DNA of 50,677 nucleotides from Thermoproteota archaeon (GTDB lineage Archaea > Thermoproteota > Bathyarchaeia > RBG-16-48-13 > GCA-020355125), in the NCBI GenBank assembly GCA_030837285.1, contig JAUPKU010000101.1, positions 1-50,677 of the forward strand. Reading direction: 5' to 3'. The notes beneath the pieces are model-generated. The model saw only the letters and a list, made by a program, of their open reading frames with translations. It ran no database searches and was not told where the DNA came from. Position 1 is the stretch's first letter; each line of letters starts with the position of its first letter. The translations under genes and the position numbers were made by a program. Positions 3,697-19,742 of this stretch are shown in pieces.

Positions 3697-4623
3697 TTGA
3701 GTTTTATACCTTTAGCTACATCCATGGGAGTCACAATTCATGCTAGAAATGAGGACTTCTTCTCTTTCTTCAACAGTCCCTATTACTCTCACATAAACTG
3801 CTCAGCCATTGACATTTACCCTAACACTGAAAATCCAATAATTCCTGCCCTCAGCCCTGTAGATGGGATAGTATCAAGACTTTATGAGTTCAAACCTCCA
3901 AGACCAAGACATTTTGAGGCTTCGGAAACCGAGAAATTGATGCTTATTATTCCTAATGAAAATCACAAAATCTATGTTCGTATCCTTCATATCGACTCTC
4001 AAATTCAAGTAGGGACTCGCGTTTCAGTTGGTGATCAAGTAGGCATTCTACTTAGAAGTGGATTCTTTAACTTTTGGACTGGCAAGCACATTCACGTCGA
4101 AGTCAGATGTTTAGAAGAGCCATTGCGAGCGAAGGGAGGGTACGTTCTTGAACCGATCAACAAAGACTATAATATTCTCAGTCAGAGAACTAATGATATT
4201 CCACCTTTGAGCATAAGCGCAATCAATGAAGACTATGCTTTAGCTGATGTTGAAAACGGTTTGTCAAGAATTGGGAACTTCTGGGGTCTAGAATGCAGAA
4301 TTGGAAGCACCTTTGGAATACTCGATGGTGGGATACCCCATTACCAGCATGGAGGTATACACGCTATTGACACTGCCTCTGTACGAGTTGGCGATGCCGT
4401 TTGGCTCTGGGGAACGGAGATTGGGAGAGTAGTCCAAGTCTCTAAAAATCTTATCCACTTCAAATCCACTCAATTATCCATTTCGGTCAATGGCAAAAAG
4501 ATTAGAGGTTTATCATTACACCCGTGGCTTAGTAAAGCAAAAGTAATAAGAATCATACCAGAGTACCCTCGCGGACTCCAAGATCTAAAAAAAGGAGAAA
4601 AGATACACTTGAGCATAGCATAA
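3697..4623 (+). CDS. M23-like (lysostaphin-fold) peptidase-domain protein with altered metal site
   Basis: A 308-residue protein; residues 20-140 resemble the M23 zinc endopeptidase fold. GKHIHVEVR (His131, His133) corresponds to the HxH motif, and VGTRVSVGDQVGILLRSG is the beta-hairpin before it. The first M23 motif (HxGxD) appears as Cys35-Ser-Ala-Ile-Asp39, so the first metal ligand would be Cys, or the site may be inactive. Residues 190-308 form a second beta-rich region with no family I recognise. There is no signal peptide. The start is taken as TTG 3697, immediately after the stop of the upstream gene with AGGT nine bases before; ATG 3724 is an alternative. Archaea lack murein, so the substrate is unlikely to be peptidoglycan. 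Confidence 0.65.
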   Translation: MSFIPLATSMGVTIHARNEDFFSFFNSPYYSHINCSAIDIYPNTENPIIPALSPVDGIVSRLYEFKPPRPRHFEASETEKLMLIIPNENHKIYVRILHIDSQIQVGTRVSVGDQVGILLRSGFFNFWTGKHIHVEVRCLEEPLRAKGGYVLEPINKDYNILSQRTNDIPPLSISAINEDYALADVENGLSRIGNFWGLECRIGSTFGILDGGIPHYQHGGIHAIDTASVRVGDAVWLWGTEIGRVVQVSKNLIHFKSTQLSISVNGKKIRGLSLHPWLSKAKVIRIIPEYPRGLQDLKKGEKIHLSIA

Positions 4624-16052: not shown

Positions 16053-16979
16053 CTATTGCAATACTCTGAACGCGGATATAGCCGCCATGGCTCCTTCTCC
16101 AACGGCAGTTGCTATCTGCATTCCACCACCGGTGCAGTCTCCAGCTGCAAAGACTCCTTCAACATTAGTTCTCTGTCTTCTATCAATCTTTATAGATCCT
16201 CCATCCGCCAATTCAATTCCAGCCCTCTTCATTATTTCAGTGTTTGGAACAACTCCAATGGCGATGAAGACTGCTTTAACCTTCAATTCTCTACTATCTC
16301 CATCTGCTAACCTCTTCACTCGAAGGGAATTCACGAAAATATCTCCGATAATAGCCTCCGCACTGTATCCTCTCAGAATTTCCGTGTTTCTCTTCTCCTC
16401 AAGCTTCCTGATTAATAGGTTTGCAGCTGGGGGATCAATTTCTTTTGAGATTACGTAGACCTTAGATGCTATATCTGAAAGGAATAAGGCGTCTTCAAAC
16501 GCTTCATCCTCAGACCCCACAACTGCTACATCTTGACCCTGAAATAGAGGTCCATCACAGAGGGCACAGTAGGTAACTCCCTTTCCTGAGAATTCCTTCT
16601 CTCCTGGAATAAAGAGGCGTCTCCTCTGAACACCTATAGCGATTATCACTGATCTTGTCGTATACTTCTTTGATCGTGTAATAACAGTCTTGATTTCGTC
16701 GTCTAGTAAGAGGGCGAGAGCCTCTTCATTTACATTCACTTTTCCACCTACTTGCTCAAACTGGCTTAAAATCTTTTTAGCCAGTTCTTCCCCGGTGATT
16801 GGTTCAGGAAAACCGGGATAGTTCTCTATTTGAGGGCCTTCCACGGCTCTTCCGCCTGGAAATTTACTTTCTAAAACTAGGATTCGTAGCCCTCTTCTTA
16901 GAGCATAGATACCTGCTGTTAGTCCCGCTGGTCCTGCCCCAAGAATTATAATGTCAAATTCTGCCTTTAGAGTTTCCAT
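16053..16979 (-). CDS. Thioredoxin-reductase-like flavoprotein with altered NAD(P)H site
   Basis: A 308-residue protein with the low-Mr thioredoxin reductase layout: FAD loop ILGAGPAGLTAGIYALRRG near residue 13, redox pair Cys138-x2-Cys141 in GVTYCALCDGP, and the C-terminal FAD motif VEGVFAAGDCTGGG. The NADPH loop, normally GGGxxA, reads VVGSEDEAFEDALFLS (residues 155-160 GSEDEA), and the HRRxxxR that binds the NADPH phosphate is absent (SKEIDPPAANLL). It may use NADH, reduced F420, ferredoxin or another donor. A Cys-pair substrate (thioredoxin or glutaredoxin-like protein) is expected from the family. A 13-codon open frame and two alternative hairpins lie upstream on the same strand. Confidence 0.85.
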   Translation of the reverse strand: METLKAEFDIIILGAGPAGLTAGIYALRRGLRILVLESKFPGGRAVEGPQIENYPGFPEPITGEELAKKILSQFEQVGGKVNVNEEALALLLDDEIKTVITRSKKYTTRSVIIAIGVQRRRLFIPGEKEFSGKGVTYCALCDGPLFQGQDVAVVGSEDEAFEDALFLSDIASKVYVISKEIDPPAANLLIRKLEEKRNTEILRGYSAEAIIGDIFVNSLRVKRLADGDSRELKVKAVFIAIGVVPNTEIMKRAGIELADGGSIKIDRRQRTNVEGVFAAGDCTGGGMQIATAVGEGAMAAISAFRVLQ

Positions 16980-17062: not shown

Positions 17063-17094
17063 CTGAGAATAATGCTGATTCTATTCTCAGCATT
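17063..17094 (-). promoter_or_regulatory. Two mutually exclusive hairpins between mini-ORF and TrxR-like gene
   Basis: On the plus strand CTGAGAAT (17063-17070) pairs perfectly with ATTCTCAG (17083-17090), and AATGCTGA (17071-17078) pairs perfectly with TCAGCATT (17087-17094). Each is an eight-pair stem and they share 17087-17090, so they cannot form together. They lie between the mini-ORF stop (17121) and the TrxR-like start (16979). A T/A-rich stretch follows on the minus strand. Terminator, attenuator or transcript-end stabiliser are all possible. Confidence 0.45.
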
Positions 17095-17120
17095 TTATGA
17101 CAGGTCTAACCAACACGACC

Positions 17121-17162
17121 TTACTTCTTCTTTGCAGGCTTTGCTGGCTTTTTAGCTGGCAT
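17121..17162 (-). CDS. 13-residue Lys/Pro/Ala mini-protein or leader peptide
   Basis: ATG at 17162 to TAA at 17121 encodes MPAKKPAKPAKKK, seven lysines in thirteen residues. A clean GGAGG lies 12 bases upstream in an otherwise T/A-rich region, which makes translation credible despite the length. It could be a tiny basic nucleic-acid-binding peptide, or a leader peptide for the TrxR-like gene that starts 142 bases downstream past two alternative hairpins. The Pro-Ala-Lys stretches could stall or slow ribosomes. No homologue is recognised. Peptide-coupled attenuation is not established in archaea. Confidence 0.45.
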   Translation of the reverse strand: MPAKKPAKPAKKK

Positions 17163-17460
17163 TTTGTATTTTTTTCCTCCAGTTAATCTAATATTTTAGA
17201 GTTTCTGGATAAAAAACTTTCTGTGAGTTTTTTTAATTCTATTTTCATAGATGTTTTTGAAAAATAAGCATTTTTTGAGGTTATTTTAAAACAGCTACTT
17301 GGAGAAATTTAATCCTCGCTTAGTGGGGCAAAATTCTAACTAAACTTCTGGAAAAGAGCTTTTGGAAATCTCTGGATGAGACTGCGTTAAGTAATCAAAC
17401 CTTATAAGATAGAAGTAGGATGATTATAAAATTCAGTTTTCAGTCGGAGATCAATCGCAT
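17163..17460. other. Divergent intergenic region, TrxR side to nfnA
   Basis: AT-rich DNA carrying the ribosome site and presumed promoter of the mini-ORF on the minus strand and, near 17399-17408, CTTATAAG, a TATA-like element about 55 bases before nfnA. No other reading frame or RNA is evident. Confidence 0.5.

Positions 17461-19742
<2,282 letters not shown>

Follow-up and report, generated by a model that had tools for sequence, protein, structure and literature searches.

The DNA analysed here (the window) is a stretch of 50,677 nucleotides from a contig of a Thermoproteota archaeon, and the intergenic region between two of its divergent genes raises the question of whether a very short lysine-rich open reading frame (ORF) serves as a regulatory leader for the thioredoxin-reductase-like (TrxR-like) gene behind it or encodes a tiny basic protein in its own right. 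The features on which the answer depends are listed below in window coordinates.

16053..16979, minus strand: TrxR-like flavoprotein of 308 aa (Pfam PF07992; NCBIfam TIGR01292 at 308 bits, below the cut-off of 343)
17044-17039 and 17035-17030, minus strand: two T6 tracts, read from the sequence as the probable archaeal transcript end between the mini-gene and trxR (putative terminator)
17063..17090, minus strand: hairpin B, 9 bp, CTGAGAATA/TATTCTCAG, about -9.5 kcal/mol; excludes hairpin A and was not found in relatives
17071..17094, minus strand: hairpin A, 8 bp, AATGCTGA/TCAGCATT, about -8.5 kcal/mol; overlaps hairpin B
17121..17162, minus strand: 13-codon ORF MPAKKPAKPAKKK, from ATG to TAA
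17176..17180, minus strand: GGAGG, a possible ribosome-binding site 13 nt from the ATG; anti-SD pairing of -9.3 kcal/mol
17209..17220, minus strand: AAAGTTTTTTAT, a putative TATA region and promoter; the identical 12-mer lies about 50 nt 5' of the 13-codon ORF of genome G011
17461..18312, plus strand: sulfide/dihydroorotate dehydrogenase-like (DHODB-like) FAD/NAD-binding protein, the divergent neighbour (NF004862, 424 bits)

Reading of the minus strand from the ATG at 17162 to the TAA at 17121 bears out the original prediction of a Lys-rich mini-gene of 13 codons, after which the frame stops with nothing further in it. The encoded peptide, MPAKKPAKPAKKK, is 46% Lys, contains neither Arg nor Trp, and draws 92% of its residues from K, A, P, G, S and T. 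The mini-ORF is intergenic, with a promoter-like box and a ribosome site upstream and a T-tract downstream, all in putative roles. A GGAGG is indeed present at 17180-17176, and the motif is uncommon in this genome (22 of 426 large ORFs), but to call the site strong was generous, its 13-nt gap to the ATG being longer than the usual spacing and too long for that description. To judge from the sequence, AAAGTTTTTTAT is placed as would be expected of a TATA element that is followed by a leader of ~20-25 nt. A further inverted repeat, AAAAAACT...AGTTTTTT (window 17210-17237), overlies this putative TATA box and may be either an operator or no more than AT-rich DNA. On the other side of the region, the gene 3' of the divergent FAD/NAD gene encodes a GltA-like protein (TIGR01316).

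To assess how rare such an ORF is, 61 stretches of the window genome were examined, which together contain 136 kb of intergenic DNA. This DNA has a single ORF that combines a length of 11-16 codons with a Lys content of 45% or more, the mini-ORF itself, against 0.05 expected in dinucleotide shuffles and 0.017 when a nearby SD-like site was also required. Scaled to the whole genome (2.74 Mb), the expectation rises to ~0.2, or ~0.07 with the SD, so that chance could account for the ORF in a single genome and the case rests on comparisons; taken alone, the rarity is suggestive only.

The original prediction likened the locus to a leader peptide with an attenuator; on that reading, translation through the Lys codons would select one of two hairpins and so decide transcription into trxR. 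Much of the described layout is there: the mini-gene, the hairpins and the flavoprotein gene, which starts at 16979 and carries the PF07992 domain, follow one another along one strand, and the two hairpins at 17063-17094, with stems of 8 and 9 bp, are mutually exclusive, AU-rich, built on common bases and near-equal in energy. The regulatory claim attached to it did not hold. TrxR orthologs were sought in the genus and family, and upstream of the nearest ones (G001, G002, G005 and G006, 43-61% identity), where the original prediction had proposed to look, neither the mini-ORF nor the hairpins occur in any of the four regions; a toprim/DnaG-like gene flanks the orthologs of G001, G002 and G005 as it does in the window. 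The T-runs stand ahead of trxR, the first T6 run beginning ~19 nt past hairpin B on the minus strand, with no U-run directly after the stem, and Lys supply has no logical link to a TrxR-like gene. Moreover, the counterpart in G011 described below has no close same-strand gene behind it. The competition between the stems also carries little weight: 605 kb of the window genome contain one mutually exclusive pair of perfect 8-bp stems at most 15 nt apart, at the mini-gene, and the 157 perfect 8-bp stems in those 605 kb would by simple arithmetic yield ~0.6 such pairs from random placement, which makes competing hairpins by themselves unremarkable. Thus, among four testable features of a leader-peptide attenuator, the sequence has a short ORF with mutually exclusive RNA hairpins behind it, whereas a hairpin running directly into a U-run, a leader conserved ahead of the regulated gene and control codons that match the pathway are all lacking, and the layout fails as such an attenuator. 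Attenuation was dropped because nothing is conserved upstream of TrxR; we consider it highly improbable and judge the TrxR-like gene to lie outside the mini-gene unit.

A counterpart of the mini-ORF was found beside the divergent neighbour. In G011, which belongs to another family of the same order, the FAD/NAD ortholog (64% identity) has divergently upstream of it a 13-codon Lys-rich ORF, MSKKKAKAKPKKK, and alignment shows AAAGTTTTTTAT to be common to both loci, ~50 nt before each ATG. Between the G011 mini-gene and the next gene (L147, ~950-1150) there is also a tRNA-like sequence, GCCCCGGCATCGAGCC...CGGGGCTCC, which ARAGORN did not call and which is perhaps an intron-containing or odd tRNA. 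G011 provides the one positional counterpart of the window copy: no comparable divergent mini-ORF accompanies the FAD/NAD orthologs of G003, G005 and G006, and the TAG noted in the G005 and G006 genes is simply the stop that normally ends them. Among the seven genomes of the window's own family, the window genome is the sole match; a fixed-frame pattern for the exact peptide recovered only the window copy from the order and the phylum; a DNA search with the intergenic region gave no repeats and only matches that were weak or at chance level; and in 800 kb of G003, a genome from this family that consists of one contig, three tiny ORFs reach the Lys threshold, none of them of the K/A/P type.

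Similar ORFs recur more widely. Search patterns were modelled on the earliest examples, and a scan for ATGNCNNNNAARAARN{12,21}AARAARAARTRR with the frame left free, run on 257 genomes of the class, returned nine matches, all of them in frame and all intergenic, compared with three matches for a reversed-pattern control. The gap allows 10 lengths, 4 of which keep the frame, giving odds of 0.4^9 = 0.00026, a figure that assumes slightly more independent events than there are, as two of the nine matches come from one genus. The encoded peptides are MASKKAKKAKKKK, MAKKKGKKKGKGKKK, MPKKKKGKSGKKKK, MPKKKKVKSGKKKK, MPKKKKAEEKKK, MAKKKATKKKKKKK, MPKKKSTAKSKKKK, MPAKKPAKPAKKK and MSKKKAKAKPKKK, and the window mini-ORF fits the general form ATG-NCN-NNN-Lys-Lys ... 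Lys-Lys-Lys-stop, with 11-18 codons and ~45% Lys or more. When the counterparts were compared for Lys content, SD pairing, TATA-like sites and T-tracts, most class matches had TATA-like and SD-like sequences before them and T-tracts after them, and some counterparts had no recognised T-tract, TATA or SD. In G502 and G563, members of different families, a mechanosensitive-channel-like gene (assigned by eye in G502) is the divergent neighbour of the mini-gene. A relaxed pattern added intergenic ORFs in G010 (same order, MPKKKKPAKKK) and G030; its matches were mostly due to chance, the low-Lys ones examined lying mostly inside longer genes. Allowing mismatches yielded many matches, several of them real-looking mini-ORFs and others coding-sequence artefacts (for example, L205, inside a longer gene).

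Scanning of 398 genomes from the phylum brought up additional Lys-rich mini-ORFs outside the class, including MAEKKPEKKGKKKK and MAEKKPEEKGKKKKK in G073 and G144, behind a textbook AGGAGGTG. In these two genomes (L276 and L275, respectively), the gene ahead of the mini-gene ends in a long poly-Glu stretch and is separated from it by a hairpin and a T-run, which places an acidic tail next to a basic peptide. At L262/L264 (G523, G062), a 14-codon Lys-rich ORF and another small ORF, MKAKKKQARTAYQS/H, overlap at the stop of the former (TAATGA/TGATGA), and at L258 (G556, ~4192-4330), the 14-codon MAKKKQKKGKKTKK lies a few bases 5' of a small ORF that starts MPECFLCGMETDALYTCKRCGERFCEEC and encodes a zinc-ribbon-like protein. 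What the Lys-rich peptides have in common is a composition of Lys with Ala, Pro, Gly and Ser, a small residue in second position and their length; their sequences do not match column by column. This likeness in composition only means that lineages may have gained such ORFs independently; at the same time, shared composition and length without a column match suits a disordered polycation that binds polyanions by charge. No description of such Lys-rich peptides was found among the papers searched, which by itself is no proof of novelty.

The strongest coding evidence comes from outside the window's class, which is probably Bathyarchaeia-like, namely from genus g60, which may comprise ammonia-oxidising archaea. 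Three genomes of this genus in the phylum scan encode MAAKKK(A/P)AAKKASKKK. The Lys/Ala ORF, of 16, 17 or 18 codons, is kept in 13 of the 16 orthologous intergenic regions that could be read throughout. Alignment gaps are all of 3 bases inside the ORF and of 1-2 nt in the flanks; identity is 91% across the ORF, 77% in the 60 nt before it and 73% in the 60 nt after it; and sense-codon variation among the copies of 16 codons is synonymous at two positions and exchanges Ala and Pro at one. This pattern of substitutions and gaps clearly points to coding constraint on the g60 mini-gene. A conserved upstream neighbour of ~200 aa without a Pfam or NCBIfam match was also seen in this genus (L280, L288-L299 and L304).

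Three further explanations of the window mini-ORF have to be weighed against these comparisons. The ORF could have arisen by chance within AT-rich intergenic DNA, as the absence of the mini-ORF from close relatives and a per-genome expectation that makes it only moderately unlikely would allow, but chance does not readily account for a counterpart in G011 that lies beside the corresponding gene and has the identical box before it, nor for a class-wide excess in which every match is in frame and intergenic, and we regard this origin as unlikely. It is less probable still, and in our view very unlikely, that a small RNA is the functional product and the ORF its by-product or an upstream regulatory element. 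The transcript would span just ~150 nt, and the segment with the hairpins folds into a more stable RNA than 200 shuffles (z -2.98), yet an Rfam search of the segment found no family near its threshold, the Lys-rich ORF is common to G011 and other genomes while the hairpins are not, and in g60 it is the coding frame that is kept.

Ribosomes contain very small basic proteins, for example eL41, and a Lys-rich composition would fit contact with rRNA, so the peptide might be a very small component of the ribosome or of another ribonucleoprotein and not a diffuse polycation. We find this very doubtful: composition alone is kept between lineages, most genomes have no match, unlike the case of ribosomal proteins, and the proteins added for the Sulfolobus ribosome, aL45, aL46 and aL47, each have a fold of their own (PMC10516650).

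The reading we favour on balance, with some reserve, is that 17121-17162 on the minus strand is a genuine, independently transcribed Lys-rich mini-gene for a free, disordered, polyanion-binding peptide. The original prediction had offered an overlooked tiny basic protein as its alternative, and the counterpart at the divergent neighbour, together with similar genes in other lineages, supports that option. Transcription would probably start ~25 nt past the AAAGTTTTTTAT box, giving a leader of ~20-25 nt that includes the GGAGG, and would probably end in the U-tracts at 17044-17030, ahead of trxR. The product would be a free, disordered Lys/Ala/Pro peptide resembling a histone-H1-type tail without the body, whose charge would allow binding of DNA, RNA or another polyanion such as polyphosphate. 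The promoter and terminator, the translation of the ORF in this archaeon, the homology of such ORFs across lineages and the binding function are our inferences, the last drawn from composition. The window mini-gene is probably one member of a set that recurs without being annotated and encodes disordered polycations with an affinity for nucleic acid or some other polyanion.

A broader proposition, which we advance tentatively and hold to be possible more than likely, is that many archaea of the phylum carry an unannotated gene of 11-18 codons for a free Lys-rich 'tail' peptide, kept by composition and working like a polyamine, either as a counter-ion to DNA, RNA or polyphosphate or by condensing them. 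Genes of this length do not reach the minimum size for a protein call in standard annotation and, if the proposition is true, would rank with the shortest protein-coding genes that archaea conserve. Archaea would then keep dedicated genes for free polycationic peptides of ~15 residues, and conservation could reside in composition instead of sequence. The Lys-rich mini-genes are concrete, testable candidates for proteomics and ribosome profiling, including those of g60, where they are kept across species.

Among known systems, the bacterial trp, ilv and pheA attenuators resemble the mini-gene locus in having a short ORF with an SD, alternative hairpins and then a gene, but at this locus the link to the gene behind is not conserved, the amino acid makes no regulatory sense and no U-run adjoins the stem. 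Very small ribosomal proteins such as eL41 are likewise very short and strongly basic; eL41, however, is a sequence-conserved protein of ~25 aa or more built on Arg, Trp and Lys, whereas the mini-gene peptides combine Lys with Ala, Pro or Gly and keep only composition, and MPAKKPAKPAKKK has 13 residues without Arg or Trp. The H1-like KPAA-repeat tails of AlgP and PhaF are Lys/Ala/Pro-rich, disordered and of low complexity, as is the Lys/Ala/Pro sequence of MPAKKPAKPAKKK; there, a repeat tail of ~150 residues is fused to a folded domain, whereas the archaeal peptide consists of 13 residues alone, encoded by a separate gene. Peptides with KPAA repeats bind DNA in vitro (as cited in PMC9239181), which offers an analogy for the mini-gene peptides. 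Finally, the archaeal small basic nucleoid-associated proteins are also small, basic and lysine-rich, exemplified by WP_019177984.1 of Methanomassiliicoccus, a protein of 74 aa shown by proteomics (PMC7613761), in comparison with which the mini-gene peptides, at 11-18 aa, are far shorter and are predicted from sequence.
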